Below, piece after piece: positions 8,003 through 52,299 of a DNA stretch of 64,000 nucleotides. This stretch comes from Boswellia sacra (taxonomy: Eukaryota > Streptophyta > Magnoliopsida > Sapindales > Burseraceae): NCBI GenBank assembly GCA_013180625.2, contig SNVD02006294.1:124001-188000 (forward strand), in the 5' to 3' direction. Within the stretch, counting starts at the first letter, position 1, and the number at the start of each line of letters is the position of its first letter. The translations under genes and the position numbers were made by a program. Under the pieces are notes generated by a model. The model had not been told where the DNA came from, did no database searches, and worked only from the letters and a program-made list of their open reading frames with translations.

Positions 8003-8653
8003 TTATAAACAGAGATTCAGATCCAATTTGCACTTTTTGTTTTGCCCTCCTAACCAATTAATTTGAGTACTAGCTGGGTCAGGTTCATACTCAACTGCTT
8101 ATAATTTATCAAGTAACTCACCAGCAGAAGTGGCAGAAATAAGGATCTTTCTCGCCGAATGAAGGATAAAATTTTATTCCACAGCTACATTAAGAAAACT
8201 TATTAAAGGATCAAAGAAATTTTTGACATTCAACAAACCTATGGGTTTTTGATGAAGATTCAGTTGGGCCCATGAGGCAATTTGAAAAATTTCTTCAAGA
8301 GTACCAAAGCCACTTGGTAATCCAATAAAGGCGTCTGAATTTATAAGCATATGTGCCATGCGTTCATGCATAGAGGAGACCTGTAACTCCTTCCCAACTA
8401 TTTTTCCGACGACGCTTTCTAAAGCTAAAGCTTTAGGAATAACCCCTAAAACTTGACTACCTCCTACATGTGCAGCTGTTGACACACAACCCATTAACCC
8501 GAGGCTACCTCCCCCATAAACCAAATGAATCTTTCTTTCAGCCAGTAGCCTACCAAGATAATTTGCTACCTCGACAAACTCTTCACTTTTACTCAGTCAA
8601 GATCCACATAATACACATATCCTTTGCATTCGACGTTTTGAAGTTTCCTCCAT
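8003..8653 (-). pseudogene. LOG-type cytokinin riboside 5'-monophosphate phosphoribohydrolase, broken, in G1
   Basis: This is the G1 counterpart of the intact G2 gene at 33061-33705. From the start codon at 8653 it shows LCGS, VYGGGSLGLMGCVS, a VSSMHERMA segment and LPSGFGTLEEIFQ. LOG enzymes have PGGxGTxxE, and here the first Gly of that motif is Ser. There are at least three in-frame stops: 8597-8599 after the CGS motif, 8174-8176, and 8099-8101. The 8099 stop is CAA to TAA relative to G2. Length (about 216 codons) matches the family. LOG proteins release free-base cytokinin from the nucleoside monophosphate in the cytosol and nucleus. This copy is almost certainly inactive. Confidence 0.88.
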
Positions 8654-8975: not shown

Positions 8976-9524
8976 CTATGAGTTAGGGATATGCTTCCCA
9001 TTCATTTTTCTTATAAACTGGTAAAAAGGGTCGTTTTGAGTCAGATTCCTAAAACTATAGCGTTCCTGCTCATCTCGGAATTGTGTCCACAAGTTAAAAA
9101 TTTCACGCTACATAAGTCCACAAGAATACGTCTCAAGAGTCACTCGGATATCATCCAAGGACTCCCTACTCAGTCCATTCTTGATGAACTATAGTTTATC
9201 CTCTCGATTGTTAGACAGATATCCCAAGGAGTGACAACGCTGGTTACAAGTCCATCTTGCACTTTTATGACAAACTTGTAACCTTTTTGCTCTTCGCTTT
9301 TTGTTATAAGAGCTTTTTCCCATACCTGGCATATGAGAAATAAGATTATTTGAAAATTCACAAGAAAATTGAACATTGGCTTCAATTAACCATCTTACAT
9401 CAGCAGGAATACCCTTACACATCAACATCCTTAGTCTTTCTTTGCCAGCTTTGTAAATTTTGAGCAAATAATTTTGAGGAAGAGGGGGAAAATGTTTGTG
9501 CAATTTTGAGAGAATGGTACCCAT
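8976..9524 (-). pseudogene. ORF-A, basic Cys-rich cargo protein, broken, in G1
   Basis: It has the same length (549 bp from ATG 9524 to stop 8976) as the intact G2 gene at 33949-34497. The start MGTILSKLHKHFPPLP aligns with MDTILSNLRRHFPFLP. The Cys cluster is VCHKSARWTCNQRC, with the second Cys changed to Ser. In-frame stops follow NREDKL and interrupt the later part. Function unknown. It lies between integrase and LOG on the same strand, with 322 bp to the LOG start. Confidence 0.75.
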
Positions 9525-9572
9525 GTGGAGAAAATGAGAGAGAAGAAAAGAAAATGGATGCAAGGTGAGCAA

Positions 9573-15137: not shown

Positions 15138-16506
15138 TGACACATCTGAAAATAGGAGTGTCGAAGTAATAAACCCAGTAAGACCGAGGTCAATCCACGA
15201 GGAAGGAGATTTTAGCGCTACAAGCTCTAAGTAAGCAAATATGATGTGGATGATTCAAAAAGATGGCAAGATAATATCAACAAATATGAGTAAAGAACAA
15301 ATTCTTAAACAATAAATGAGAATAACATGAAAAATTAACACAATAATAATGAGAGCTAAGGTTAAGGGATTCGCCCTTGATATATCAAATAAGGAAAAAC
15401 AACCCATTTTAGTTATATGAGTTATATTTGCTTCGTTACCAATATTTATACCACTTTTTGTAAATGAGTTCAAGCATCTAACGTACCAATCACTATATGT
15501 CTACAACAAATCAAGGTTCCTAACTAGATTTGTGTCGGTAAGGAAGAACCATACAACATCTAGAAAGGATCCAAGCATCTGATGTGCCAAGTATTGTCGA
15601 CAATGGATCAAGACCTCCACTTTACGAGTGGTGTCAAGATTGATTAGAGAAATAAATATAAATCATATAAACAACACAAGATTATGATTATTAAGCACAT
15701 ATTAAAGGGTTAGAGAATCCTTATTCTCATATCAAGGGTTTCACCCTTTCACCTTAGCAAGAGAGAAATTAGATAGACATTATAAGAAAAAAAAAAACAA
15801 ATTGCAAGCAAAAGAAGATTTATTAATAGCATGAACACACAAGAGAGAAAAACACGATACAAGATCCCAACCTAGGCCAAGATATTCCAGCCAAGGCCAA
15901 GATGCCCCAATGGTTCACAAGGAACCTCCATTTATAGATACATTTAGGGGCAAACTTGTCAAATTACAAATGAATAATTTTTAAATATTAGATGCACCAA
16001 CTTTGACAATTGGGATAATTAGGTGAACCAATTTTGACCACCAATTTTGACCTTGAATTGTTTCGAATTTTAATCACATATCTTCATGAAATCGTAGATA
16101 TTTCTCTCAACTTCTTAGAAAATCTTGATTCATATGATTTGAATATGTATTATGAGAGATATGGTCAAAATACTGAGGCATGGTCAGGCTGGACTGAAAC
16201 TACAGATGGGTTCACTTTAAGCCCATTTTTTGTCTATTAAAAGACCAAATTTGATGATACTTGTTAAATACAATCTTGTAGATAATTTAATTAGCTTTCC
16301 AAAACATTAAGATTTGCACAATTTTGATCTATAAATAGCAAGTTATGCCCATTTTACCAAACCTGTAACAAAACCAAAATTAAGAAAATGTTAATTGTAA
16401 AGATGCAAAGACTAAAAATATGCTTAAGTTGAAGAATTCAATGATACTATTAATGCAATATGATGAGCTAAGCTCTTATTAAATATACATATTTAAGTGT
16501 TCATCA
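15138..16506 (-). mobile_element. G1 5' LTR
   Basis: 1,369 bp, TG...CA, aligned end to end with the 3' LTR at 5282-6667. It is followed by the GTTAT target repeat at 16507-16511. Confidence 0.92.
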
Positions 16507-16511
16507 GTTAT

Positions 16512-16786
16512 ACGCAAAGGGCACATCGAAATTGCTAATGCATTTCAGGAAGCTGTTGTGAGTTTGTCCGAAGAATGTTAGGAATAATCGAGAATTCCAG
16601 GAAGGAAAATATATTTCATCGGGGCATACTAATAATGCACTAAATGCTGTTTCATAAATGTTATTTACAGTCAATAAGGCATCGTAGTCGAGGAAAAAAG
16701 GCAAAAAATATTGTAATCATACAATGGATTATAGAAATTGTTCATAAGCTTGGAATTAATGCGACAATTTATTTAAATTAAAAACT
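16512..16786. repeat. ~510-bp tandem repeat, remainder of copy 3
   Basis: The sequence ACGCAAAGGGCACATCGAAAT continues exactly where copy 3 stopped at 5281, and matches positions about 4270-4555 of copy 1. It is cut at 16787 by the start of an LTR. Confidence 0.75.
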
Positions 16787-17647
16787 GCTGAACACTTAAA
16801 TATGTATGCTTAATAAGAGCTTAATTTATCATATTACATTAATAGACTAATAGTGTCATTAAATTTCTCAACTTAAGCATATTTGTAGTCTTTACATCTT
16901 TTGAATTAACTTTATCTTAATTTTGATTTTGATGTAAGTTTGGTAAAATAGGCATAACTTTCTATTTATAGATCAAAATGATGCAAATCTTAACATTTTG
17001 GAAAGCTAATTAAATTATCGACAAGATTGTATTTCACAAACATAATCAAATTCAAGCTCTTAGTAGACCCAAAATGGGCTTGAAGTGAACCCATCTATAG
17101 TTTTAGCCTAGCCTGACCATGCCTCAGTATTTTGAGCATATCTCTCAAAATACGTATCCAAATTGTATGAACCAAGATGTTATAGAAAGCTGAGAGAAAT
17201 ATCTACAACTCTCATGAAGACATGTGATCAAAATTATCAATAATTCAATGTCAAAATCGGTGGTCAAAGTTGGTTCACCTAATTACCCCAATTGTCAACA
17301 AAATTTTGACAAATGTTCCTTTGTAATTTGACAAGTTTGCCCCGGAATATATCTATAAATAGAAGTGCCTTGTGACCCATTAGGGCATCTTGACGTTGGC
17401 TGGGATCACTTGTTATTGTACTTTTCTCTCTTGTGTTTTAATGTTATTAATGAATTTTCTTTTTCTTGCAATTTGTTTTTCTTTTACAATATTTTGCTAA
17501 ATTCTCTTTTGTTAAAGTGAAAGGGTGAAACCCTTGATATGAGAGTAAGAATTTTTTAACCTTTTGATATGTGCTTAATAATCATAATCTTTGTTATTTA
17601 TTTTATATGATTTATATTTATTTCTCTAATCAATCTTGACACCACTA
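16787..17647 (+). mobile_element. Truncated LTR of the G1 family, opposite orientation
   Basis: It begins TGCTGAACACTTAAATATGT, close to the G1 LTR start on the minus strand, and follows that LTR for about 860 bp up to CAATCTTGACACCACT, where similarity stops. It is a solo or 5'-truncated relic abutting the tandem repeat. Confidence 0.7.
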
Positions 17648-29170: not shown

Positions 29171-30349
29171 AAATGCTCTTATTCGTGTTGCATATTTTGT
29201 AGCTAATTCATAACTGATGGATAAGGCTTCTTTCACGGTTAGATGCTTTTCCTAAGGTTGATTTTAATTTCATGTGCACTTACAGTTGGATTGTTTTCTA
29301 ATATGACAATGTTCTGGATCAGGTATTGGATAAAATTTTTGGTCAGTTTGCAAGCATTTGGATGAATATAAAAGTCCAAGTAAAAACCAAAGAAGATCTT
29401 GATGATGCTCAACAATACAAATTCAGGCGTCGCGCCTTTATGATTGATAGAGTTTTTGAAGTTGATAAATCATCACTAAGCAAGTTGTTTACAAATGATA
29501 CTCTACCAGAATTGGAGGAGCTACTCTCTAAAGAAGAAGTTACTAAAAAGGTTATGCTTCTACTGTTACATTGCAAACTCATTATGCCTGTATATTTTAA
29601 AGGTTGTCAATCTTCCCCATGTTTTAACATACATGTAATACATTCAGGTGGAAGCTGATGATGAGTGTGAGAGTTAGGAGGATGAATGGAACATTCTACA
29701 GGAATATATCCTGCACAAAATGGTCTACATGCGCAATCAATTATTTGGGTCTACTGATCTTGTCTTGAGTGTAAGTTGTCTCTGAAAACTTTCTGGATGC
29801 ATAATTGGCCTTATGGTTTGATAAAAACACTTTTCTTTTTCCGTGTTCATGTTGGAAATTGTAACCACCTATAGTACTGTCTTTTTGAAATTTTCCTGAT
29901 AAACGCGTGGAAAGAATCAGATATTTGGGAAGGATCTTAGTTACATGTTGCAGATGCTCTGTTTTTGGTGAAACTTGAGAGTTGCTGTGTATTTTTCCAA
30001 ACAAGTTCTCTCGAATGATGTCACTTGGCTGCCTATGATTATTTTCTTTGCTAAGTAGTTTACCTGATTAATAAATGAAAACATCACAAGAATGGCGTCT
30101 GTTATATAAAAATTTTGATTGTGTCCACTGTACATATTTGTATGTTTGGTTTATTTATCATTTTCTCAAACTTTCTGTGTCAAAAAAAATGAAACATGGT
30201 AGTTGCGAGATTGAAATTTTTGCCGGCAATTTGCTTATTAAAAGAAAATCTCTCTCCCTTTTCCTGTATTTGTGTGGGTTTGCTTCAAGTCATGGATTTT
30301 TCTGCAATGTGCCTACACTAAAAATTGTTTGTTGATCCCCCTGACCCCC

Positions 30350-31760
30350 TGTTTACGCCCAAAATATACCGCGGTTATTGTAGTATACGTTGAGGTGTCG
30401 AATCCACAAGGAGGCTTTTGATAAAAGAGGTTAGTAAAACAAAAATATAAAAGATAATAAAGATATAAAATTTAACTTTGAAGTGATTAGTTCTAAAGAA
30501 AATACAATGTTTAATAATTGGAAACAATCGATGGTAATTAAGAAGTAAGGCATCGAGAATCACTTATATGTTTTGTAAATCTAATCCCCACTTTGATTTA
30601 ATAATTATAACTCAATTGAAAGTTTCACATCCTAAACAATCAATCGGAAAATATGTATAGTATAGCATAAATGATAAACACATGTATTTGATATGCATAA
30701 ACTCTTTACAAGCAATATTTACCAACAACATTCATCCTTACAAGTTATCCGAGAGCGACAATATATCACATGACAATATTGTAGTAAAGGATTAACTCAT
30801 AAAACGAAACTACCAGTAACAATTATAATTCAACATGAATCACATAAAGAAAGCATGACTGAATTTATATGAAATTGAGAATTATAATTTCTGGATTAAA
30901 AAGAAATCACAAGATGAGAAAGAGTTTAACACATAAACAAACATACAATCTTTATAGCCCTTGAGGTAGAATGAAAGTGGAGAAATAGATAAACTACACA
31001 TACAAGTTCATCTCTAGCCTTACCAAGAGTTCTAGCCTAACTTACAATTCATTCTTATCATTTCTAAAGAGAAAATACAAGAGAGAATTGCAATATACAA
31101 TGATAAAATGTGAACTCAAATGATTTTTTCTCTCCCCCCATTCAATTCCTCAAGTTGTCCTTAAATAGGTGATGAAATGGAACTATTACACCAAACCTCC
31201 ACCAATTTTTCCACAATGTCGGCCACCAACTTGCACTGATTTTTGACCACCAAATGGACCGAATTGGGCTTTGTGGAAAACATGAAAGTTGTAGATTTTG
31301 TCTCAGCTTTCCAGGGCCACCAGATTCATGCAATTTGGACAAGTATTCTCTGAGATATGGCCCAAATACTGGACATGGGTCGGGCTGAGAAACAACTACA
31401 ATTTGGTTTTGTTGTGTCTCAATTTCGGCCCATCAAATGTTGGATTTGGGCTTTTGATTGTTCTTCAACTTTGTGTAAAATTGAGACATGTTGCTCCAGG
31501 TTCAATAATCTCTCCATTTTGATCTATAGATTGAGAGTTGTGTCCATTTTGTTAAACCTGAAAAAATGATTTCCATTAATCACAATTTAAGGACAATACT
31601 TTATTTCAAGATAAAGACTAAAGAAAATGCAAAAGAAATGAAACAAATGTAAAAGAGGCATAAGCAAAATAATTATGCTAAAATATCATAAAAGCTTTAT
31701 AATACTGTCCAATTAGCATTAATTATTTATATTTAAGAGTGTACTTTCATGCGTTTATCA
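30350..31760 (-). mobile_element. G2 3' LTR
   Basis: 1,411 bp, beginning (minus strand) TGATAAACGCATGAAAGTAC and ending GGGCGTAAACA, nearly identical to 41354-42765. Confidence 0.95.
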
Positions 31761-31772
31761 CAATCCCCAGCC
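31761..31772 (-). promoter_or_regulatory. G2 polypurine tract
   Basis: The minus strand reads GGCTGGGGATTG next to the 3' LTR. Confidence 0.6.
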
Positions 31773-33060
31773 AGCTTATTGCTAGTCTCTAGCAATTAAA
31801 GTGTAAATGAAGCATGAAGAACTACTTCAGCATTTCAAACAAAAAGTCAGTTCAAGATCACAATTGCTATAAAGGTTATTTCAATCATAACTTCCAAAAC
31901 TGAGCACATGTGAATCAAGCCAAACCTTCTTACCACAAACTGCAAAACATATAGCCTTGAAAATTACTCTATGTAAAAGCCTCAACTCCATATCCTCACA
32001 GGTGAACGACTGTTTAAAAAGGCTATGATTTCTCTCATGGAGTTGGAAAACAGAATAAACACACAAGAAAAGGTCACATTTAAGGACAGACAGACAACTA
32101 ACATTGATCCAAAGATAGAAAAATCCAATGTTTAGAATCAAACCATTCTTGCAACATGCTACCTTTAGGACTTCGTTTATCTTGAGTGAATAAATACAGC
32201 TTGGTGAGAAAAGACTGCTTCATAAAACTTCTATCTTCTAAAATTGAATGAAGACATTATTGAATCGAACTGACTTCTTCTTTTTTTTTCTTTCTTTTTT
32301 TTCTTTCTTTTTTTTCTTTTCTTTTTTTTTCACAAGAATTGAAATTTCATCTTGAATCGTCCCTTAGCTCAATTTCGAGTAATGACATTCTAAACAAGGA
32401 TTAATCAATTCAAAGGATCAATGAAAGTTCGTAAGCTGTTTTCTCAACCTCTCCACTCACTCACAAAAGATGTGTGAGATTAAAAAAATGTGAACTTGAA
32501 CATGAGAATTCTCTTGGCTATATACATTGAATCATCCATCTTACCACAAGGCTTATCATTGTGCTCAAAATAATTTCAGAAATCATTATTTGATAACCTA
32601 AATAGAAAAGATGACTCAAACCAATAATTTTGAAATCATACCTTGATAGAAAAACAAACCCATTTAGACAAGAATTACCGAGAACACATGCAATAAACAG
32701 CTGTGCATGAAATACAATTCAAAAATAAAAAACAAATCAACTAGTTAGAATGCATTTCAAGAGGTCAAAACTATACTCCCTACTCTACCATTCTGGATCT
32801 AATTGATCCAGAATGCGTCTCAAGAGATAATAAACTCTTTACACTGCCATTCTCAGACCAATAGATTTTTTTTTTTTTTGAAATGCAATGCAAAACATAT
32901 GTCTCCTATCTACCCCCAACCAGACGAAACATTATCCTCAATGTTTAAATGTAGAAGGAGAAAGTATAAGAGACATCACCTAAAGCTTCAGTTATTCAAG
33001 AGAAACAAACCTGAAAAACACTTAATAAAATATTGTGAACAAAGCCAAAAGTAAGAAAAG
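31773..33060 (-). other. G2 non-coding region between LOG and 3' LTR
   Basis: No convincing ORF. It includes a pyrimidine-rich run (32279-32330) and a conserved block near 32760-33010 that aligns with G1 around 7675-7925, including ACATTGAGGATAATG on the minus strand. Confidence 0.6.
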
Positions 33061-33705
33061 TTACAAACGAAGTGTCAGATCCAATTTTCTCTCATTGCTC
33101 ATTCCCACTGACCAATTAATTTGAGATGCTTCAGGGTCAGGTTCATAAACAAAAGCTTGCAATTTATCAATTAGTTCATCAGCAGTTGAGGCAGAGACAA
33201 GGATCCGTTGTGCTAATTGTGAGATAAATCTTTGTTCCACAGCTTGATTAACAAAACACAATAAACAATCAAAGAAATTATTGACATTCAACAAACCTAT
33301 GGGTTTCTGGTGGATATTGAGTTGGGCCCAAGAGACAACTTGAAAGATTTCTTCCATTGTTCCAAAACCTCCTGGTAAAGCAATAAAGGCATCTGCATTT
33401 ACAATCATACGAGCTATGCGTTCATGCATGGATGAGACCTGTAATTCCTCTCCAACTGTTTTTCCAGCAACGTTAACTAAAGCTTTAGGAATAATTCCTA
33501 AAACTTGACTTCCTCTTGAGTATGCAGTTGTTGACACACACCCCATTAACCCATGGTTACCTCCCCCATAAATTAAATGAAGTTTTCTCTCAGCTAGAAC
33601 CTTACCAAGATTATGAGCTGCTTTTAAAAAAGCTATATCTTTACCAGGCTGAGATCCACAAAATACACATATATTTCGGAATCGACGAGCTGAGGTTCCC
33701 TCCAT
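33061..33705 (-). CDS. Cytokinin riboside 5'-monophosphate phosphoribohydrolase (LOG family), retrotransposon cargo
   Basis: This is an intact 214-residue LOG-type protein. The start is ATG 33705, not the GTG five codons upstream, because G1 starts at the equivalent ATG and the usual LOG length is about 200-230. Motifs: NICVFCGSQPGKD at the N-terminus, LIYGGGNHGLMGCVS, the MHERIARM segment with the conserved Arg, and the catalytic/phosphate motif LPGGFGTMEEIFQ (PGGxGTxxE in the family), then SWAQLNIHQKPIGLLNV. LOG hydrolyses iPMP/tZMP to free cytokinin plus ribose-5-phosphate. The gene is intronless, whereas plant LOG genes have several introns, so it came by way of RNA. It lies 243 bp after ORF-A. 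Expression and activity are unproven. Confidence 0.93.
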   Translation of the reverse strand: MEGTSARRFRNICVFCGSQPGKDIAFLKAAHNLGKVLAERKLHLIYGGGNHGLMGCVSTTAYSRGSQVLGIIPKALVNVAGKTVGEELQVSSMHERIARMIVNADAFIALPGGFGTMEEIFQVVSWAQLNIHQKPIGLLNVNNFFDCLLCFVNQAVEQRFISQLAQRILVSASTADELIDKLQAFVYEPDPEASQINWSVGMSNERKLDLTLRL

Positions 33706-33754
33706 TTTGATACAACTCACTAACTATGTATATGCAAATGAAGAACATGAGATG

Positions 33755-33762
33755 TATTTATA
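33755..33762 (-). promoter_or_regulatory. TATA box candidate upstream of G2 LOG
   Basis: TATAAATA on the minus strand ends 50 bp from the LOG ATG, as in G1. Farther upstream a CTATATAGATGTC block (about 33788-33800) is conserved too. It could serve a cargo-specific promoter, or be chance in AT-rich DNA. Confidence 0.45.
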
Positions 33763-33948
33763 GAATGCAAAAAGGTAGTACAATAATGACATCTATATAG
33801 GTAGCTCAACTGTTTGTCTGACAAACGTTGAAAATAAAAATAAAAATAGAAATTCAAAAATAACGGCAAGCATGCATATGTACAAGTAGTTGTGATTGTG
33901 GCTCACATCTTCCTCTGATTTTACGTCCAGTAACAGCTGAAACACCTT

Positions 33949-34497
33949 CTATGAGTTGGGGATATGCTTCCCATCCAATTTTCTTATAAATTGGCAAACA
34001 GGGTCGTTTTGAGTCAGATTCCCGAAACTATAGCGTTCTTGCTCTTCTCGAAATTGTGTCCATAATCTTAAAATCTCTCGATGCACAAGTCCACAAGGAT
34101 GCGTCTCAAAAGTCAACAAGATATTATCTAGAGACTCCTTACTCAGTCCATCCTTAATGAACTGAATCTTATCTTCTCGATTGACAGACACATATCCTAA
34201 AGAGCGACATCGCTTGTTACAGGTCCATCGTGCACATTTGTGACAAACTTGTAATTTATTTGCTCTTCGCTTTTTCGCGTAAGAGCTTTTACCCAAACCA
34301 GGCATGAAGGAAACAAAGGCTTTTGAACATTCACCAGATAATCGAACTTTGGCTTCAATTAACCATCGTATATCAACAGGTAAACCCATGAGCATTAGCA
34401 ATTTTAACCTTGCAAACCGTGCTTTGTAAATTTTGAGCAATGCATTTGGAGGAAGAAAAGGAAAATGTCTACGAAGGTTTGAAAGAATCGTATCCAT
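33949..34497 (-). CDS. ORF-A, basic Cys-rich protein of unknown function, retrotransposon cargo
   Basis: A 182-residue ORF with ATG at 34497. The N-terminus MDTILSNLRRHFPFLPP is followed by a basic stretch (YKARFARLKLLM), then KKRRANKLQVCHKCARWTCN and KRCRSLGY. The Cys pattern is C-x2-C-x4-C-x3-C, possibly metal binding. The C-terminal third is helical-looking and charged (IQFIKDGLSKESLDN, LRLWTQFREEQERYSFG). There is no signal peptide and no clear membrane segment, so it does not look like an envelope protein although it occupies the env position. G1 has a degraded homologue of identical length. I do not recognise the family. The KKRRAN basic patch may be a nuclear signal. Confidence 0.8.
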   Translation of the reverse strand: MDTILSNLRRHFPFLPPNALLKIYKARFARLKLLMLMGLPVDIRWLIEAKVRLSGECSKAFVSFMPGLGKSSYAKKRRANKLQVCHKCARWTCNKRCRSLGYVSVNREDKIQFIKDGLSKESLDNILLTFETHPCGLVHREILRLWTQFREEQERYSFGNLTQNDPVCQFIRKLDGKHIPNS

Positions 34498-34536
34498 TTT
34501 GAAAGGTAAAAGAATGCACGATTTTTGTTTGGGTTA

Positions 34537-34606
34537 CAGTTTTTAGGGAACTGAAAAACCGACTTAATTAGTCACGGAGTACCGTATCCGCCACTTAACC
34601 GGGAAG
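34537..34606 (-). promoter_or_regulatory. Conserved block with 3' splice-acceptor signal upstream of ORF-A (G2)
   Basis: The minus strand contains AAGTCGGTTTTTCAG then TTCCCTAAAAACTG, a textbook pyrimidine-AG acceptor, with the ORF-A ATG 53 nt downstream. The upstream CGGTACTCCGT inverted repeat is shared with G1. It could create a subgenomic mRNA for the cargo genes. Confidence 0.5.
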
Positions 34607-35005: not shown

Positions 35006-36060
35006 TCAATCTCCACCGCTCCATTGGGAAAAAACGTGCTTTACGACAAATGGTCCAGTCCATCGAGATCTCAACTTTCCAGGGTGTAAATGCAATCGAG
35101 AATCATGAAGATAAACTCGTTGATTTAGCTCAAAGTTTTTCCTCAAGATTTGTTTGTCGTGAGCCGCTTTCATCTTAGCCTTGTAAATCTTGGAGTTGTC
35201 ATAGGCATCATTCCGCAATTCTTCTATTTCAGACAATTGTAACTTTCTTTGAAGACCTGGAACACTCAAATCAAAGTTAAGGGCTTTGACAGCCCAATAA
35301 GGTTTATGTTCTAGCTCAACAGGTAAATGACAAGCTTTCCCATAGACAAGGCGATAAAGAGACATCCCTAGAATAGTTTTATAAGCAGTGCAGTAAGCCC
35401 ATAATGCATCAGAAAGGTGTAAAAACCAGTCTTTGCGATTCGGGTTAACAGTCTTTTCTAGAATCTGCTTGACCTCCCTATTTGCGAGTTCAGCTTGCCC
35501 ATTTGTCTGTGGATGGTATGCGGTGGAAATCTTATGAAGAACACCATACCTGCGCATCAAAGCTTCAAAAGAACGGTTACAAAAATGTGTCCCTTGGTCA
35601 CTGATGATGACACGTGGCGTACCATACCTAGACAACACGTTTTCTTTTAAGAATTTTACCACGGTTGTGTTATCATTAGTACGACAAGCCATAGCCTCCA
35701 CCCATTTGGACACATAATCAACAGCTAGAAGAATATAAGATAACCAAAAGATGGAGGAAAAGGTCCCATAAAGTCAATACCCCAACAGTCAAATATCTCA
35801 ATAACAAGAATAGGGCTAAGAGGCATCATATGACGGCGAGATAAAGCCCCCAACTTTTGACATCTTTCACATGAACGACAAAAATTGTTAGTATCTTTAA
35901 ACAAAGTGGGCCAATAGAGTCCACACTGTAAAATTTTTGCAGTAGTCTTTTTTATTGAGAAATGACCACCACAAGCAGTGCCATGACAAAAGTTTAAGAC
36001 ACTAGCAATTTCACTATCAGGAATGCAACATCGCATAATTTGGTCAGCGCAATATTTGAA
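35006..36060 (-). pseudogene. G2 integrase region of pol
   Basis: The zinc-binding domain is visible (FCHGTACGGHFS ... FCRSCERCQ). The catalytic DDE core follows with [30 protein letters not shown] and [19 protein letters not shown], then a C-terminal [17 protein letters not shown] segment. A frameshift near 35720 separates the first catalytic Asp from the rest, and a stop near 36075 separates it from RNase H. The chromodomain of chromoviruses is absent, consistent with the Athila/Tat branch. Confidence 0.9.
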
Positions 36061-38200
36061 AAGATATGGATCATCCTAATAAAAATTACGCACCTCAACC
36101 AAGAACTTACGCTTATCTTGTACACTCCAGTCAGATGGAACTTCTCCACAAACCAAGTAATTTACAATATGGGCATACCAAGGTACTTGGCTTATAGTGA
36201 AAAGATGTTCATCAGGGAAATCATCTTGAATGGGTTGGACATTAGTGGAATCATGGAACTCAAGATGGGACAAATGATCTGCTACAACATTTTCGACGCC
36301 CTTCTTGTCCTTAATGGTTAGATCAAATTCCTGCAAAAGAAGAATCCATCTAATTAGACGGGCCTTAGCATCCTTTTTAGAAAAAAGGTACTTCAAAGCT
36401 GCATGGTCAGTAAACACAGTAATAGGTGAACCAATTAAATAAGAACGAAATTTTTCCAAGGCAAAAACAATAGCTAATAGTTCCTTTTCAGTAGTAGAAT
36501 AATTCATTTGAGCATCATTTAAGGTTCTACTAGCATAGTAAACAATAAAGGGTTTGCCCTCCCTTTTTTGACCAAGGACTGCTCCTATAGTATAGTTACT
36601 GGCATCACACATAATCTCAAATGGAAGGCTCCAATCAGGTGACTGCATAATAGGGGCAGTGGTGAGTTTGGCAATTAATGTCTGAAATGCGTCCTCACAA
36701 GCTTGATCCACACAAATTCAGCATCTTTCAATAAGAGGTTACACAATGGTCTAGATATAGAAGAAAAATTTTGTATAAACCTCCTATAAAAACCAGCATG
36801 CCCTAGAAAAGATCAGACATCTTTTATTGTTTTAGGTGTAGGTAATTTAGAGATCAACTCGATCTTAGCCTTGTCAACCTTCATTCCTCTTTCTAAAATA
36901 ATGTGTCCCAAAACAATCCCAGAAGACACCATGAAATGACATTTTTCCCAGTTAAGCACAAGTCCTTTTTATTCACACCTACTCAAAACAGATTTTAAGT
37001 TAAGTAGACATGAATCAAAAGAGTTACCAAAAATAGTCAAATCATCCATAAAAACCTCCATGCATTTTTCAACCATGTCTGAGAAAATACTAAGCATGCA
37101 ACGTTGAAAAGTAGCTGGTGCATTACATAATCCAAATGGCATCCTACACGTTCCAAAGTAGCTGGTGCATTACATAATCCAAAGTAGCTGGTGCATTACA
37201 TAATCCAAAAGCATAAGTACCAAAAGGGCATGTGAAGGTAGTCTTATCCTGATCCTCTAGAGCTATCTCTATCTGGTAATATCCTGAGTACCCATCGAGA
37301 AAGCAATAAAAGGGATGACCAGCTACACGTTCCAAAATTTGGTCAATAAAAGGCAATGGAAAGTAGTCTTTTCGGGTGGCTGTGTTTAATTTCCTATAAT
37401 CAATGCACATCCGCCATCCGGTTACTACTCTAGTTAGAACAAACACTCCTTTATCATTTTGAACCACAGTTACTCCAGATTTCTTAGGCACTACCTGTGT
37501 TGGACTTACCCATTGACTATCAGATATTGGATAGATTATACCTGCATCTAATAGTTTTAAGACTTCTTTCTTTACCACTTCTTTCATTGTTGGATTAAGT
37601 CTTCTTTGGGGGTCTCTACGAGGTTGGCTACCTTCCTCTAGATGGATTCTATGGGAGCATATTAATGGAGAAATACCTTTAATATCAGCTATAGTCCATC
37701 CTAGTGCAGACTTATGTTCTTTTAACAAGTTTATCAATTTTTCATCTTGTTCAACACTAAGTTCTGAAGAAATAATAACAGGAAAGGTATCACCTGCTCC
37801 CAAGAAAACGTGCTTCAAACCTTTGGGCAATGGAGAAAGTTCAACTTTTGGAGCCTCTAAGTTAGAGGGTTTTGGCTTCTCTCTTCCACGAGGCAATTCT
37901 TCAAAGCGTGGTTGCCAAAATCGAGTCCTTTTATCCTGTGAGTCAAAAACACCAAATACATTAGTCGTATTATCAGGATAAAATGAATCTTCAAATTCAG
38001 AATCAAGAAGGTAGTCTAAAGAGTCAAAATCCTGTTTTCTATAAGCCTCTTCTGAGATAAGTGTGTCTATCATATATGAATGGTAGCAATCGTCCTTCTC
38101 TCGTGGTTGCTTTCCAATATGGAAAATATTCACTTCAAGAGTCATATTACCAAATGATAATTTCATGAGACCGTTCCTGCAATTAATAAAAGCATTAGCA
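36061..38200 (-). pseudogene. G2 reverse transcriptase and RNase H region
   Basis: RT is seen as LLDAGIIYPISDSQWVSPTQ, WRMCIDYRKLNTATRKDYFP and FYCFLDGYSGYYQIEIA, with the catalytic FMDD motif near 37040. RNase H at 36076-36711 has [39 protein letters not shown] and [14 protein letters not shown]. The FGLCNAPAT part of RT is disturbed by repeated copies of a 26-bp segment (37108-37210), and stops lie between 36711 and 37140. The enzyme cannot be made whole from this copy. Confidence 0.9.
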
Positions 38201-38966
38201 GTAGCAAGAAAAGGTCTCCCTAAAATAAGAGGAATTCTGGACTCCATATTAACCACAGACTGAGTATCCAAAACAAGAAAATCAACAGGATAATAAAATT
38301 TATCAATTTGTAATAAAACATCTTCCACTATTCCCCGTGGTTTCTTGACTGATCGGTCGGCCAATTGTAGAACTATGGATGTAGTTTGATCTCTCCAAGT
38401 CCTAATTGTAAGTAAACCGAATAGGGCATGAGATTGACACTTGCTCCCAAGTCTAACAATGCTTGACTGATTTCATGTGTCCCAATCTGGCAGGAAATTG
38501 TAGGACACCCTAGATCTTTGTACTTGGGTGGGGTTTCTTGTTCAATGACTACACTTACCTGTTCTGTTAAGAATGCAGTCTTCTTGACATGGTATTTTCT
38601 TTTGATGGTGCATAGATCCTTGATAACTTTGGCGTAAGCCGGAACCTGTTTGATTACATGCAACAAGGGAAGATTAATCTTAACTTGTTTTAAGTGTTCT
38701 AGAATCTCACCTTAAACTTTTGAGTTTTTTCCATTAGATCTGAGAGCTTGGGGAAAAGGCACTGGAATCGAAAATTTCTTTTCAAGTTCTTTCTAAAAAA
38801 TGTCCTCCTTTTCTAGGAGAACATCTTTGTTTTCCATGGTAGTTTTAATTGGCAATGTAGGCTCATTTAAGATCTTACCACTTCGAGTAGTGATGGCATT
38901 TACCTCTTCGAGATTTTGTGTGTCAGAAGTAGAGGCTTGTGCCATGTGTTGCCTTTTTGGATTAGA
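38201..38966 (-). pseudogene. G2 aspartic protease and linker
   Basis: Contains CPTISCQIGTHEISQALLDL then GASVNLMPYSVYLQLGLGEI. A frameshift at about 38388 separates this from ADRSVKKPRGIVEDVL. The upstream linker has an AITTRSGKI segment as in Athila gag-pro junctions and at least two stops. Confidence 0.8.
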
Positions 38967-40349: not shown

Positions 40350-40489
40350 ACATCACTCACAATTTGTCTCTCTTTTTGTTTTTTTTTTGTTTTTTTTGTT
40401 TTTTTTTTTTACACAAGAAAGTTCTCAAATAAAGTCAAAAAGCAATAAGATAACAAAAGTTAGAGAGAATAATAACAACAATAATAATA
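40350..40489 (-). other. G2 leader next to gag
   Basis: Low-complexity A-rich (minus strand) run with no ORF; part of the 5' untranslated leader. Confidence 0.5.
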
Positions 40490-41165
40490 AAACAAACAAG
40501 GTGGCAGAGCCAACCTTTGACAAGTATATATAGAATATAAAAAAATTAAAACAAATAACAAGTAAAGGCGGCAAAGCCGACCTTTAACAAGTAAATTAAT
40601 AATAACAATAATAATAATAAAACAAACAAGGTGGCAAAGCCAACCTTTGATAAGTATATATAGAATATAAAAAAAAATTAAAACAAATAACAAGTAAAAG
40701 AAATAAGACGGCAAAGCTGACCTTTAACAAGTAATAACAACAATAATAAAAATAAAACAAACAAGGTGGCAAAGCCGACCTTTAACAAGTAAAAGAAATA
40801 AGGCGGCAAAGCTGACCTTTAACAAGTAAAAGAAATAAGGCGGCAAAGCCGACCTTTAACAAGTAATAACAACAATAATAATAATAAAACAAACAAGGTG
40901 GCAAAGCCGACCTTTAACAAGTAAAAGAAATAAGGCGGCAAAGCCGACCTTTAACAAGTAATAACAACAATAATAATAATAAAACAAACAAGGTGGCAAA
41001 GCCGTTTAACCAAGGCGGCAAAGCCGACCTTTAACAAGTAAAAGAAACAAGGCGGCAAAGCCGACCTTTGAAAAGTAAAAGGAGCAAGGCGGCAAAGCCG
41101 TCCTTTAACAAATAAAAGAAACAAGGCGGCAAAGCTGACAAGGCTTTGAAAAGTAAAAGGAATAA
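40490..41165 (-). repeat. Array of 14 hairpin-forming repeats in the G2 leader
   Basis: The core (plus strand) AAGGCGGCAAAGCCGACCTT recurs about 14 times at spacings of mostly 36-65 bp, joined by AACAAGTAA-type and (AAT)n linkers. Each core folds as AAGG-CGGC-AAA-GCCG-(bulged A)-CCTT on either strand. Variants (for example TGGC/GCCA or AGCTG) vary the lower stem. G1 lacks it. ORFs crossing it encode only the repeat. Confidence 0.85.
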
Positions 41166-41353: not shown

Positions 41354-42765
41354 TGTTTATGCCCAAAATATACCGCGGTTATCGTAGTATACGTTGATGT
41401 GTCGAATCCACAAGGAGGCCTTTGATAAAAGAGGTTAGTAAAACAAAAATATAAAAGATAATAAAGATATAAAATTTAACTTTGAAGTGATTAGTTCTAA
41501 AGAAAATACAATGTTTAATAATTGGAAACGATCGATGGTAATTAAGAAGTAAGGCATCAAGAATCACTTATATGTTTTGTAAATCTAATCCCCACTTTGA
41601 TTTAATAATTATAACTCAATTGAAAGTTTCACATCCCAAACAATCAATCGGAAAATATGTATAGTATAGCATAAATGATAAACACATGTATTTGATATGC
41701 ATAAACTCTTTACAAGCAATATTTACCAACAACATTCATCCTTACAAGTTATCCAAGAGCGACAATATATCACATGACAATATTGTAGTAAAGGATTAAC
41801 TCATAAAACGAAACTACCAGTAACAATTATAATTCAATATGAATCACATAAAGAAAGCATGACTGAATTTATATGAAATTGAGAATTATAATTTCTGGAT
41901 TAAAAAGAAATCACAAGATGAGAAAGAGTTTAATACATAAACAAACATACAATCTTTATAGCCCTTGAGGTAGAATGAAAGTGGAGAAATAGATAAACTA
42001 CACATACAAGTTCATATCTAGCCTTACCAAGAGTTCTAGCCTAACTTACAATTCATTCTTATCATTTCTAAAGAGAAAATACAAGAGAGAATTGCAATAT
42101 ACAATGATAAAATGTGAACTCAAATGATTTTTTCTCCCCCCATTCAATTCCTCAAGTTGTCCTTAAATAGGTGATGAAATGGAACTATTACACCAAACCT
42201 CCACCAATTTTTCCACAATGTCGGCCACCAACTTGCAGCTGATTTTTGACCACCAAAATGGATCGAATTGGGCTTTGTGGAAAACATGAAAGTTGTAGCA
42301 TTTTGTCTCAGCTTTCCAGGGCCACCAGATTCATGCAATTTAGACAAGTATTCTCTGAGATATGGCCCAAATACTGGACATGGGTCGGGCTGAGAAACAA
42401 CTACAATTTGGTTTTGTTGTGTCTCAATTTCGGCCCATCAAATGTTGGATTTGGGCTTTTGATTGTTCTTCAACTTTGTGTAAAATTGAGACATGTTGCT
42501 CCAGGTTCAATAATCTCTCCATTTTGATCTATAGATTGAGAGTTGTGTCTATTTTATTAAACCTGAAAAAATGATTTCCATTAATCACAATTTAAGGACA
42601 ATACTTTATTTCAAGATAAAGACTAAAGAAAATGCAAAAGAAATGAAACAAATGTAAAAGAGGCATAAGCAAAATAATTATGCTAAAATATCATAAAAGC
42701 TTTATAATACTGTCCAATTAGCATTAATTATTTATGCTTAAGAGTGTACTTTCATGCGTTTATCA
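41354..42765 (-). mobile_element. G2 5' LTR
   Basis: 1,412 bp, TG...CA, nearly identical to the 3' LTR; the target repeat CCCCC follows at 42766-42770. Confidence 0.95.
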
Positions 42766-44577
42766 CCCCCAACAGCTTGGGACCTTCCAAATCTCTGACG
42801 CAGACAGATTGCTTTCTTTTACCAACTCTTATACATTGGGAGAAGAAATGATAAGAGGTAATTAAAAGATTTCTTTTCTCAGGTTAAATAGTTAATTGGT
42901 GGTAACTGAAGGAAGAAAATATTTACCCTATCTTTTTGTTTGCAGGTTTAGGGGGTCTATGTGCTTCACCTTTGGACACCAGACTTGCACCAGAGCATGT
43001 ACTACGCCTTTGCTTGGAGCATGACCATAAATATGTTCCATTTCACAACTCAGCTTGCAAATGCAATTTTTACAAGGTTTTGCAAACTTCATCACCATAT
43101 TGGGACAACAGTTGTTATTAATTTCATCATTGTAGTTTTCATTTCCTCATATTTTAGTTTTCTTTTTTTCTCTTCCAAACCATTTATAGAGGATTCAAAT
43201 GCTTTTGTTATGGAAAAAATGGTGAAGTTACTTACATCTCTTAAACAGCGAGTTCATACACTTCTGAGTGAGTGGGAAGATCACCCTGGTCTGCAGAAGG
43301 TCGTGGATGTGATTGAAATGCTGTTGGCTATTCCTCTGACAACTTCTCTAGCAAAGGTACTCAATATAGTTAGTCATGGTCAAATTGTTTTGTCAAATAT
43401 TATAGTTTCCATCAGCTTTCAGCTTTTTACCTGTTTAATTTTTATTACATTTCATTCTATTTTGGCTTACAGATCTGCTGGAACCCATTACTGGTCTGGT
43501 GTGTGCATGGCAAAAGATGGAGTTTGATTCTTGGCCTGCATTGCTTGATGAGGTGCAAGATCAGTATGAAAATAATGCTGGGAAGGTATGTTTACCTGGA
43601 TAATAATTATTTGAGTAAGAACTTTGCCATCTATATAGAACTAATGGTAATAGCAGCTATAAGTTCACACTATTTTGGCTTATATTATGTGAGGAATTAG
43701 TATACAAAAAGCCTTCCTCCTTTCGGCATGTTGAAGCATACCATTATGCGTTAAGGTATGTTTACCATTAACGCATAATATAAATTCTTTAAATTGCTGT
43801 GACATGAGTCATAGTAACTTTCGAGGAGAGTTTATTGTAACTTTTAGAGAAAGAAAAGACTACTTTATTGGACACTCCTCTTTTGGGTAGGTTATCAACA
43901 AATTTGTTGAGCGATGACACATACATCATTTCCTTGTTGTCAGTTAGTTAACTTCATAATTAAATTTTTTTTTTTTAAAAGATGGGATAGGAATAATTTC
44001 ATTAGTAGTAAGTACATGATTTGTTGTACAAAAGAATTTTTTATAATGAAAAGAAACTTACAGGGAAGATATTGCAAATACACTTCGTATACTTGTTGCC
44101 ACAAATTGCCATCTGGGCTACATGGAGAAGGATGAAATAAGGTGGCATGATTCATTCTAGGCATTTGAGGAGATATGCTCTATAGGAGAGCAAAAATAGG
44201 TGATCAACTTTTTTCCCTGGTATATTTTGGCATATCTATATTTTTGCAGTTTGTTTTGTATAGATACTATTTGCATTTTTTGCAGTAGTTTCTTGAAATT
44301 CTCTGAGTAGCTTTATTTTATGTATTAAAAAGAAGAATCATCTATTCAGTTTGACTACTGTACACTTCTCTCTGCTGCCAACTTCCTCCTGTAATTGCTT
44401 CTTTCCTTTGTGTAATTCACTGGGAAACTTGAAAGTTGCTTTGCAAAAATGAATGCGTTTCTTTCTAGTGTTTGGTGGTGATAAGACTGGTCCAAGGAAT
44501 TTCAATTATAATTAATGTTTTGGGTTTCATTAAATTTTTCTTGACATTCAATGGGTGCTGACTTCTACCCAATACAG

Positions 44578-47349: not shown

Positions 47350-47716
47350 TAATTTTTTTAAATTATTTTTTTAATTTTTGAAACTATTATACTTGGCAGT
47401 CAAAAACCGTCAAGTATATATTTTTTAATTTTTAAACCTATTATACTTGGCGGTCAAAAACCGCCAAGTATAGTGAGGTGCATATTTGATGGTTAAAAAC
47501 TGTCAAATATGTATTTTTTAAATTTTTTAAAATTATTTATACTTGGCGGTCAAAAACCGCCAAGTATAGTCATGTGCATATTTGGCGGTCTTATAACCGC
47601 CAAATATTCTAAATTGACTATATTTGGCGGTGCCATTGGTGGCGTTTTCAAGACCGTCAAATATATACATATTTGACGGTTAAAGACCGCCAAATATGGC
47701 ATTTTTTCTTGTAGTG
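47350..47716 (+). repeat. CACTA 3' subterminal region of element I with palindromes
   Basis: TATACTTGGCGGT and ACCGCCAAGTATA occur as 13-bp inverted arms with 5-bp spacers at 47442-47472 and 47538-47568. An ATATTTGGCGGT/ACCGCCAAATAT pair and other variants follow, then the terminus TTCTTGTAGTG. Such repeats are where CACTA transposase accessory proteins bind. Confidence 0.8.
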
Positions 47717-49559
47717 AACATTAAGGCGATTCATAATGGATGTAATAGTTATTAGGCATTTGAAATAAATTCATCCAAAAATGCTACTTGTCCAAATATT
47801 AACTTTTGTATCGTGGAAGATATAGAATGTGCTATATTAGAAGGCAAGTATGTTTGTTTCACTTGCTTTATATAGGCTCCAAGTGCCTTAAGCATTTGGG
47901 TGTTTTGATAAGGACTGCAATGAATTTAGACCCCCATTATTTGAGGTCATAGGTTCCACATATCAACATATATGTTGCCATAGGTTCAAATTGAGGCTAT
48001 TTTTTAGGGCATTGGTATTGCACTTGGGGAACTTCTTGCTTATTTTATCTCAAGGGCAAGTCTGATCACCAAATTTATGTTAGTAGTTTCTTTTCTAGTT
48101 GAGATATGATGATAAAATTATTAAATAAAATAACTTGTTAGCAATGAACCATTAAAAACTTAATAGGCATATAATGTGATCTTTTTGCATGTTGATTGTC
48201 TTCTTCTGCACCAGTTTTTTTTTTTTTTTTTTTGCTTGAGACTCTTTCTTTTAATTATATATATCAATTATATAGTCAAAATATGTACCAAGTGGTACCT
48301 GGAATTTATCAATGCCTCCTAATACTATTATCTCATCTTACATTAATATGTATTCTCTTTTTTGGACTTTTTTAGAATGGCTATATGATGGGGATTGTAA
48401 GGAGGATGTGAGGTTCTATATGACAATTTCATGTGAAGAGGTAATACTTGACTTATGCTATACCAGATCTGAATTTTGTCTTCATTTTTATGCATGTATA
48501 TTTTATAAAGAATTAACATCTATCCAAACAAAAAAGTAACAAAATCTAACAAAAAAGATCAATTATTATTGTTCATATGATTTAATTCTTACTAGTACAT
48601 TGGCCCATATGCAAACAACATGGGTCTGCCAACTGCTTTCACGAGTCCACAACGACATAATTGTGCCAGCTGCTTTCATAAGTTCTCTGTTTTGCTGCAA
48701 CCAAATGATTATGTCCAATGGTAGGAATTGAGGTTGCAAAAATTGGGTAGTTGTCTTTCTCATTCTTATATGATTACTCATTCATTCATTAGTTTTCAAA
48801 GTCTAATTTTCCACTTTTTTTAGTTGTTGTATGATTGAAATTATGATCTGCACTAGGTTCTTGTATTCTAGTTGCCAGAAGGATTACTTTTAATTTTATA
48901 TAGATTGGATTGGATGCATGTGGTTAATCAATAAGTTGAAGCAAAAATGGACAAACACATGATTATATGGTGTTGGACATGTTTATGCCTTTGGCTCGAT
49001 TGAGCTATTTTGTTTGGCTTTATTTCTATGTGGGTTTGCATGTTTAATTTGAAAATTTAAATAGGAAGCTACATAATATTTATCAACTAATTAAATTGAT
49101 ATAATTAGTTGTGATAAGGGTATATATTGAGGGAAAAGTAGTTTAATTTAGAATTTTTGGCAAGGTTGGGGGTTTGAGATGTTTTTGAAGAAGAGTAATT
49201 TTAAATTACTTGTAATTGATTATTTGAATTCTTTCTTTCTGTTGTGAATTCAAATAAATTATTTGAAAATTTGAGTTTTCATTGTGAACTTCTTCATTGC
49301 AGGCTAGCTGGTTGCAAGTAATCTCGTTTGCTTCATTGGAAGACCAGAACAAGATGGTGAATTATCTTTTGCTGGTTGCATTCTTTGCAACATCTTAAAT
49401 GAACAAATTTTTATGTATTAACATCTTAAATGTTAATTCCCTACTGGTGAAGGATGTACTATAATGTAAAAATATTTTTTTTTTTGTGCTTGACTCTTCT
49501 CTTTTATTTGCAGGTTTTGCAAGAAGTTTTGAGGTTAAATTTCTTAAATTTTTTAAAAT
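47717..49559. other. Element III interior, no clear gene
   Basis: AT-rich DNA. A possible exon at 49303-49355 (TTGCAG|GCTAGCTGG...) has one open frame (ASWLQVISFASLEDQNK) but no recognised source. A poly-T run lies at 48217-48233. Confidence 0.3.
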
Positions 49560-49822
49560 ACCTATTATATATATATATATATATTAATTTTTTTAAATAC
49601 CTGGCGGCTAAAAACTGTCAAGTATATATTTTTTTAATTTTTAAAACTATTTATAATTGGTCGTAAAAAATCGTCAAGTATAGTCAGACTTATATTTGGT
49701 AGGTTGACTGACCGTCAAATTGACCATATTTGGCAGTGCCATTGGTGGCGCTCTCAAGACCGACAAATATATACTTACGTGGCAACCCAAAACCGTCAAA
49801 TATGAGCATTTTTCTTGTAGTA
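49560..49822 (+). repeat. CACTA 3' subterminal region and right terminus of element III
   Basis: A decayed version of the element I right end: CTGGCGGCTAAAAACTGTCA, ATTTGGCAGTGCCATTGGTGG and the terminus TTTTTCTTGTAGTA. Confidence 0.65.
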
Positions 49823-51923
49823 ATGGCATTCCAAGAATTTAGAGGAGAGCTTCAACGCTAATTGGAATGCTTCATTGATTTGATTCTTTGAGTCATTGAT
49901 TCATGTATGAGAGGTAGAAATCGTGCATGAATATTTTGATTAGATCTGATTGAGTTAGTAAACACTTGAGAGAACTTGCAAGTTAAGTATTTATGTAATT
50001 CAGTGTCAGGCGTCGTTCTATAACTTAACATGGTGCCTTTAAGTTATCTGTGACAAAGAGTGGGTAGTGTCACTAGAGTTTAAGATCTTGGCGGGAATTT
50101 ATTTTACAAAAATTAGGTCAGTGTGTAAGAGTGAGTCAACACTGTAAGCGATCTTAAAGATTGTACAAACAAGAACTTAGTGAATTACAGCTCTAGCTAT
50201 GGCTGTCCGTGGATGTAGGTTTCATAACCGAACTACATAAAAATCCTCCTGTGTTGATTTACATTACAATTTACTGTTATATTTTTTATACTGCATATTT
50301 TTAGAACTTACAACAACAATCATGCTTCTTGTCTCCCAAAGTTTGTCAAGGTTCCAACTCAAGTCCAACTACAAATCGAGCTAGACTCTGATCAATTACA
50401 AAGGCAAGTTTTTTTGTCTCTTGTGAATCAAAGTTCACAATCTGATTTTTGGTGGCTACAAAATCCTAAGCTATTGATCTTGTATAGCGTAATTGTTGAC
50501 ATCCATTGGCTTTTATCTCTTCTAAAAGTGAGTGCCTTGCAAATATAAAATCGATGCCATTAGCAGCTCTTGCATAAAGAGTTTTAAGAAGAGTTCGAAA
50601 ATCTGTATGAATGAGTTTTGGTATATTAAAGGTTTTGGGAGAGAGTTAAATTCTATATATGATGTTAATTAATGTTATCATATAGTGGATAACTCTTGTC
50701 ATTGATAGCCGTGGTCTTTTCTCAGGTTTTAAAGCTTTCACGTAAAATATTATAGTTATTGTACTTCCCTAATTTCACTAATTTCTCTATTATTACTCAC
50801 ATTTCTATAAAAATGGATTAGGGAGGAATTTAAAATTATTCCTAAAAGTTATTTGGGGAGTCCAAATATTTTAACAAGAATTAATCTTAAAACTTCATTA
50901 ATTATACAAACTTATCTTAGTTCCAATAGAAAAGTTGATGCTAGCTACAATAGGAGATCATCATTACGATTGAAATTATTTTTCTTAAACTCAAACCTAT
51001 TTTAAAGGAAAATAAATAAAAGCATAAAAAAATCATCACAAATTTAGTAAATAAAATACTTAATTCTACAAAATTTTACCCTAATTTGGAATTTTTACAT
51101 GTAGCATCTCGTCACTATACTGGATATATATGTTAAAACGCTCCCATTAGTTCGAGACCTTTAGGGAAAGTCTTAAAAAAAAATTAGCCATATATTTCTA
51201 ATATCTGCCTTTGTCGGGCCATTTTGTATATCCACCGTTTAATATTGTTGTACACCGTCTTAACTCAATCAATTAAACACATACTAGTTACTAGTATCTA
51301 TTTTAGATTTTAGACGGAAGTTGTTCAAACAAATTACATTTATTAGCATTGTGAGACTCACAAACTCATGGAAAATGTTTTATTGAACAAAATTACACAC
51401 TAAAAAGGGCGATAAAATACAAATACATTTAGGAATGTGTTTACTTGAGACTTGCATGCAGGTCACTAGGAGAACAACATGCACATGCCAAACTATTAAG
51501 CAAAAAGGCAAGGTTGAGTGCAGTTGTAGACTGAGTAGCTAGCCTGCAGTGTCATCAGGAGCAAGAGAATATTTGCGGCTAGCAGCGTAAGAAACTGCCA
51601 TGAACTAGACACGTAAAGCTTTAAATATTTCCCAAACATGTAAAGCTTTAAACACGTAAGGTTTACTTGGGTGAGTTTTGACTTGGTGCAACCGAGTATC
51701 ACTTAGCTCACTTCAACGACCAAATTGAGGTTTGTCCACTTCTACACTATCCTTTTGTGAAGTGGCTGCATGCTTAACATTAATTGTTTGGGTTTTTTCT
51801 CAACAAGTAATTGATTCTAAAGCATTTACAAATGAGGGTTTTTTTGTTTTTTTAGCTCAGATTTTAGTAGGGATATTCCTAGTTGAAGAAAATAATTAAG
51901 GTTGGTGATCTGTGTTTAGGATT
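49823..51923. other. Spacer between CACTA elements, with copia-LTR-like part
   Basis: Around 50150-50270, AATTACAGCTCTAGCTATGG and GTGGATGTAGGTTTCATAAC, followed by CGAACTACATAAAAATC, resemble the 3' part of Ty1/copia LTRs. LTR ends and primer site cannot be placed. The rest (50340-51900) is AT-rich with no gene seen. Confidence 0.35.
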
Positions 51924-52299
51924 CACTACAAGAAAAATGATCATATTTGGCCGTCTTAAAAGCGTTATCAATGGCACCGCCAAATATAGTCAAATTTGAC
52001 TATATTTGGCGGTCGGTCAAAGTGCCAAATATGCATTTAACTATTGGCAGTCTTTGACCACCAAATATGATAGGTTTAAAAATTAAAAAAAAATACTTGG
52101 CAGTTTTTGGCCGCCAAGTATAATAGTTTCAAAAATTAAAAAAAAAAAATTCAGCATGCCTTGAATGCCTAAACAGTGTTGAATCATAGGCCAAGCATTT
52201 TTAGAATAGAATTCAATAGATGTTATGAGTATCATTTACAATCATAAATTAAAAATATCACTCACTTAAAATTTCTAATTAATCCCATAGCAGATAGAA

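Follow-up and report, generated by a model that had tools for sequence, protein, structure and literature searches.

Two Athila-like elements with similarity to LOGL4 were reportedly described by Steinbauerova 2011. YgdH/LOG domains are found in the gypsy consensuses of two Citrus species and, when unfiltered, of P. trichocarpa (PMC9289625, Alvarado-Marchena 2022), a finding that agrees with Steinbauerova 2011 according to the same paper. These reports in Citrus and Populus mean that a retrotransposon with LOG among its cargo is no novelty. Like the element G2 examined here, the Citrus and Populus elements carry the LOG domain as an extra ORF, but the section describing them (PMC9289625) mentions no partner gene for a viral-type nucleic-acid-binding protein (NABP), no C-terminal tail, selection or cassette exchange, and no wider distribution. 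Among the titles and abstracts listed from an open-licence library, this was the one relevant paper found on LOG in retrotransposons, and none described a carlavirus- or NABP-type gene in a retrotransposon; passages of PMC7264820 and PMC11963269 make no mention of lysine, and those of PMC11963269 none of YgdH or Carla. In a 2019 survey (PMC6317226), extra ORFs entered the count from 250 codons upward, a threshold at which LOG and NABP would both have been passed over. The virus-like partner of LOG described below is thus apparently unreported, and we presume the same of the EAR-type tail and the cassette exchange. A different likeness is offered by gypsy elements of orchids, whose additional gene encodes an AlkB m6A demethylase, a domain that also occurs in Alpha- and Betaflexiviridae, and has been proposed to work against the RNA surveillance of the host (PMC9289625); both domain and host differ from those of G2, which has two genes, one of them for a hormone enzyme.

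Across the 64,000 nucleotides of Boswellia sacra DNA that we analysed (the window), two complete LTR elements with related cargo, G1 and G2, were delimited (Table 1). In G2, gag, RNase H and integrase scored over the Pfam cut-offs and place a gypsy element on the minus strand, which may be of the Athila type (Ty3/gypsy), as judged from integrase motifs and a PBS-like TGGCGCCGTTGCCGGGGA of tRNA-Asp type. No Pfam protease model was matched in G2, and its open frames gave no match to a chromodomain or an archaeal-type second RNase H, pol being broken and 36718-37143 lying outside the scan. As pol is split into several frames, G2 looks unable to move alone, and this copy is probably not autonomous at present. 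The 5' leader (40423-41161) holds a tandem-repeat array with units of 37 bases and longer and the core GGCGGCAAAGCCGACC; ARAGORN found no tRNA in the 64-kb window. The LTRs of G1 and G2 are broadly different, as an earlier note on this DNA had held, except that short LTR blocks are 74–78% identical. Left of G1 (4031-5339) lie tandem copies of a unit of ~505 bases, 63–85% alike, and part of this unit recurs on the right (16508-16785), as if G1 had inserted into the array; a third G1-type LTR copy, inverted and partial (83–85%), stands just past the right LTR of G1 (16783-17646).

Table 1. Positions of the features of elements G2 and G1 in the window
Feature	Position	Strand	Remarks
G2 5' LTR	41354..42765	-	ends set one base inward to TG...CA
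G2 3' LTR	30350..31760	-	98.4% identity to 5' LTR (BLAST)
G2 target site duplication CCCCC, left copy	30345..30349	.	
G2 target site duplication CCCCC, right copy	42766..42770	.	
G2 gag ORF, 460 aa	38967..40349	-	PF03732, zf-CCHC
G2 pol, N-terminal part including part of RT	37144..38472	-	frame stops there; PF00078 just under cut-off
G2 RNase H domain	36076..36717	-	PF17917
G2 integrase zinc-binding domain	35725..36075	-	PF17921
G2 integrase core and C-terminus	35006..35773	-	PF00665
G2 cassette block (LOG and NABP with the spacer between them and a flank on either side)	32716..34605	-	alignable between G1 and G2
G2 conserved non-coding stretch ahead of NABP	34498..34605	-	70% identity to G1
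G2 second cargo ORF, 182 aa, carlavirus-type nucleic-acid-binding/cysteine-rich protein (putative)	33949..34497	-	PF01623, PF05515
G2 non-coding stretch ahead of LOG	33706..33850	-	blocks GAGCTACCTATATAGATGTC and ATAAATAC identical in G1 and G2
G2 LOG-type phosphoribohydrolase ORF (putative), 214 aa	33061..33705	-	intact, intronless, ATG start; PF03641; tail ERKLDLTLRL (EAR-type LxLxL)
G1 LTRs	5282-6667 and 15138-16506		91.9% identity over BLAST-aligned part
G1 target site duplication GTTAT	5277-5281 and 16507-16511		identified visually in the flanking sequence
G1 LOG homologue	about 8006..8653	-	3 internal stops, no frameshift relative to G2
G1 NABP homologue, 127-aa open part	9189..9572	-	full-length frame has 2 internal stops

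The earlier note had described an intact, intronless LOG gene with the motif PGGxGTxxE as cargo of G2, and this was borne out by the ORF, its PF03641 domain, the closely similar LTRs and the target duplication. The gene lies between the integrase and the 3' LTR; its coordinates and intactness stood, whereas its strand had to be corrected to minus, since the plus strand from 33061 contains 18 stops. The protein covers the whole Pfam Lysine_decarbox/LOG profile (1-131 of 131, E 9.7e-38) and reads PGGFGTMEE at the motif. Its best solved relative is Arabidopsis At2g37210 (PDB 2a33, E 1e-59), with 1ydh the second-best Arabidopsis LOG-type structure (E 2.8e-56), and it is identical at 96/193 residues to each of At2g37210 and At5g11950, which we take to be LOG3 and LOG8, respectively. 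By domain and motif, it is a putative cytokinin riboside 5'-monophosphate phosphoribohydrolase. While it shares the LOG motif with these host enzymes, it differs from them in falling into a separate clade, in bearing a C-terminal EAR-type tail, and in being intronless and mobile. The broken homologue claimed for G1 was likewise recovered, at the same place in the element rather than at an independent point of insertion. Two other descriptions of the locus were discarded: a host LOG gene interrupted by the element, because the ORF is intronless, sits within the LTRs and occupies the same site in G1, and a LOG gene broken in G2, because the ORF is intact.

Between integrase and LOG, G2 carries a second cargo ORF that is absent from the earlier note. 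Its product scored 28.0 bits against Carla_C4 PF01623 (cut-off 20.9) and 27.8 bits against Viral_NABP PF05515 (cut-off 23), a likeness to viral proteins of only ~28 bits (E ~1e-6). A protein search yielded 434 relatives at E<=1e-3, and Populus, Acer, Xanthoceras, Rhamnella and Orobanche are among the matches listed. When 66 members were aligned, including 65 of the 120 listed matches, PF05515 was detected at E<=0.001 in 59/66 and PF01623 in 57/66 (missing in 7 and 9, respectively), and C85, C88, C93, C97 and a KKRRAK stretch at 75-80 were each conserved in at least 90% of the rows. The finger spacing of the retrotransposon protein is C-x2-C-x4-C-x3-C, and that of carlaviruses is longer. Like the NABPs of carlaviruses, mandariviruses and allexiviruses, the G2 protein exceeds the curated profile cut-offs, with matches that span its basic and cysteine region, but unlike them it resides in a retrotransposon and is no more than a candidate for their activity. 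Two Rhamnella gene models fit the order integrase-NABP-LOG: P0085 unites NABP and LOG domains (Pfam), and P0087 joins an integrase-like C-terminus, spotted by eye, to NABP. When all 108 contig sizes were compared, six were common to the NABP and LOG match lists against 1.77 expected, chromosome-scale and blank entries being left out, and at least six were reached in 14/2000 jitters; matching contig sizes alone were nevertheless rejected as proof of linkage, as some chance matches are expected. Scans of viral contigs with LOG and NABP, as single sequences and as alignments, returned 9, 7, 145 and 20 pattern matches and no confirmed relatives.

Small, basic and of zinc-finger type, with its four cysteines and KKRRAK patch, the NABP-like protein might act on the RNA of the element itself, as an additional nucleocapsid or a nucleic-acid chaperone, instead of suppressing silencing. 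We consider this unlikely, since the families it matches are those of viral NABPs, several of which suppress silencing (PMC12172455), and since gag already provides a zinc knuckle. Carlavirus-type CRPs are themselves silencing suppressors, and p12 of the carlavirus CVB doubles as a transcription factor that causes hyperplasia (PMC12172455).

Both cargo genes bear the mark of constraint. For the pair G1–G2, the dN/dS (omega) that the earlier note had proposed to compute between retrotransposon LOGs is below 1, at 0.43 (bootstrap 0.29-0.59), and that of NABP is 0.30 (bootstrap 0.18-0.50), values which contain the neutral decay of G1 and would presumably be lower for the time under selection. As judged from these codons, LOG and NABP were under purifying selection. 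Silent divergence (pS) between the same two elements amounted to 0.386 for NABP and LOG together (391 codons; 4-fold sites 34/105) and to 0.75 for gag-pol (1,233 codons, saturated; 4-fold sites 143/224), gap and stop codons being skipped in both omega and pS, and a difference of this size was reached in 0/1000 permutations that treated codons as exchangeable. The earlier claim that LOG was in the lineage before G1 and G2 split is not supported by this comparison. Since the silent divergence of the cassette is about half that of gag-pol in the same pair, it points instead to a later exchange of the cassette between lineages. Non-synonymous divergence (dN) was 0.20 for the cassette, 0.22 for the integrase and 0.35 for gag-pol as a whole; integrase dN is close to that of the cassette, yet integrase silent sites are saturated, which argues for a difference in age and not in protein constraint. 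On the evidence of this one pair of elements, the NABP–LOG cassette has probably been exchanged between element lineages.

The alignable block extends beyond the two genes. It is nearly continuous over 32895-34605, with a separate piece at 32716-32843 (69%), and thus starts ~110 bases before NABP and ends at least 165 bases beyond LOG; identity stands at 67–75% in the upstream flank, the spacer and the nearer part of the downstream flank, against shuffle maxima of 51–58%. From the block to the 3' LTR, identity is at shuffle level (0.45), except for the 69% piece and a short match at 31765-31804, which adjoins the LTR in the polypurine-tract region, and the stretch between integrase and block reaches 0.56 over 112 columns (shuffle maximum 0.52). 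Such conservation of non-coding blocks adjoining both genes, together with a gag-pol protein divergence that is on average higher too, would also suit vertical inheritance without any exchange, with silent sites slowed by RNA-level constraint from promoter, packaging or splicing signals. The halved silent divergence, however, covers two whole ORFs while spacer and flanks are just 67–75% identical, and the cassette matches the integrase in dN although integrase silent sites are saturated, so that we regard purely vertical descent as improbable and retain exchange as the better account. Among the blocks identical in G1 and G2 at 33706-33850 and 34498-34605 are a TATA-like ATAAATAC and a TTTTCAG, a possible splice acceptor. 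Read by motif, the stretch 33706..33850 could possibly hold an internal promoter, allowing a separate LOG transcript.

A protein search with the G2 LOG returned 7,520 matches, host and bacterial LOGs among them. The best 120 of these share 58–78% identity and include 50 Reevesia clusters over 17 chromosome sizes, other sources being Diplodiscus, Pterospermum, Populus, Xanthoceras, Melia and Paulownia. They appear to be dispersed multicopy genes, whose location in retroelements is suggested by copy number and similarity, and we refer to them as retro-LOGs; the exact PGGxGTxxE is present in 102/120 and absent in 18/120. The gene is therefore not limited to the two copies in the window with a dN/dS near 1: relatives occur in many plants, and omega is well below that value. 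Trees drew on 38 or 30 of the best 120 retro-LOGs, and host LOGs below 225 aa were thinned for them to one in four or one in six. In the tree with 30 of the listed proteins, retro-LOGs (31 rows) formed one clade with support 97/96, an outcome favoured by their sampling by similarity to G2, and host LOG1/3/4 and LOG8 (15 rows) formed another (99/96), with retro-LOGs outside the LOG1/3/4 clade. An AU test left the branching order of retro-LOGs and LOG8 unfixed (p 0.10). The simplest reading of these trees would be one capture from a plant-type LOG, either old or laterally spread.

On a rival reading, one capture brought in a viral fragment and the cDNA of a host LOG, which would since have hitchhiked with a successful element as neutral or weakly useful passengers with no role in cytokinin or silencing; the extra ORFs of plant LTR elements are mostly heterogeneous and their function has been questioned (PMC6317226), and the cargo copies of G1 are broken. 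We judge this quite improbable, given omega values far under 1 for LOG and NABP, relatives at 58–80% protein identity across several plant families, the active-site motif in most of the best LOG relatives, and the conservation of an alternating-leucine tail.

This tail distinguishes the retro-LOGs from a control set made up of LOG1/3/4-type host LOGs only. Within the last 15 residues, LxLxL was found in 95/120 of the best retro-LOGs and in 0/120 host proteins (6/120 of which carry it at an internal position); a basic patch within the last 18 residues was found in 100/120 and 1/120, respectively, and the two together in 87/120 and 0/120. Some of the 25/120 relatives lacking the terminal LxLxL are truncated or fused gene models. 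A typical retro-LOG ends in KKLRLDLSLRL; the G2 tail, LDLTLRL, conforms to the EAR LxLxL pattern with a weak basic patch of its own (ERK), and the broken G1 homologue retains CKLDLNLCL. Across a 40-row alignment, which drew on 39 of the best 120 LOG matches, the tail leucine columns are nearly fixed and the intervening positions variable. The repression motifs of the EAR class include LxLxL (PMC6479872), an EAR effector of a pathogen binds TOPLESS (PMC8126959), and both fungi and oomycetes have EAR effectors that target TOPLESS (PMC8126959, PMC7446885). From the frequency of tail and patch and from these effectors, one could argue that LOG works mainly in the nucleus by binding TOPLESS, changing the chromatin repression of the element as a decoy or as a recruiter, with catalysis secondary. 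However, the retention of the catalytic motif in 102/120 relatives and the conservation of the whole enzyme go beyond what a tail carrier needs, which makes a mainly non-catalytic role doubtful in our view.

Taken together, the sequences are best read, with a probability of roughly 0.5, as a host-manipulation cassette that would combine silencing suppression with cytokinin activation and be mobile between elements; the rivals weighed above are not all mutually exclusive. In such a cassette, the NABP-like protein would dampen host RNA silencing of the element and might act on host transcription, as does carlavirus p12, while LOG would convert cytokinin nucleotides to active cytokinin in the expressing cell. 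Local cytokinin would hold that cell in a dividing, meristem-like state, favouring expression and inheritance of the element. The EAR-type tail and, in most relatives, the basic patch may carry LOG into the nucleus and into contact with corepressors of the TOPLESS type, where it could act as a decoy relieving repression or could serve to place the enzyme. The cassette would presumably have spread as a module by recombination (template switching) between element RNAs during reverse transcription. A fuller version is more tentative, and we hold it possible but not probable: an exchangeable two-gene unit of a virus-type suppressor and a nuclear, TOPLESS-addressed cytokinin enzyme would keep the cell dividing and de-repressed, move as a unit, have persisted across rosids and probably asterids, and converge with geminivirus AC2.

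Agrobacterium T-DNA carries ipt, which makes cytokinin de novo, whereas LOG only activates existing nucleotides, so that the analogy with T-DNA proposed in the earlier note is a loose one. Once NABP is counted, AC2/C2 is, as an analogy, the nearer parallel: it acts as a silencing suppressor and also raises cytokinin, and susceptibility is enhanced (PMC8062710). It differs in being one protein that inhibits adenosine kinase, and its likeness to the cassette is one of workings only, not a claim of homology; the two cassette genes would do what AC2 does alone. If the host-manipulation reading is true, a hormone-activating enzyme and a virus-type suppressor would have been long kept together by a resident genomic parasite, which would make it possible to examine directly whether transposable elements turn cell fate (meristem or germline access) to their advantage, and would bring together the fields of transposon silencing, plant virology and cytokinin biology. 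Some 'LOG' annotations in tree genomes, such as Populus trichocarpa 'LOGL10' and a Melia entry, might then be transposon genes.

Elsewhere in the window, several copies of a hairpin-forming MITE-like repeat with the core ATACTTGGCGGTCAAAAACCGCCAAGTAT occur in both orientations at 47363-52147, and a plus-strand ORF of 365 aa at 60144-61241 matches no Pfam family and contains a tandem duplication of ~204 bases within it.
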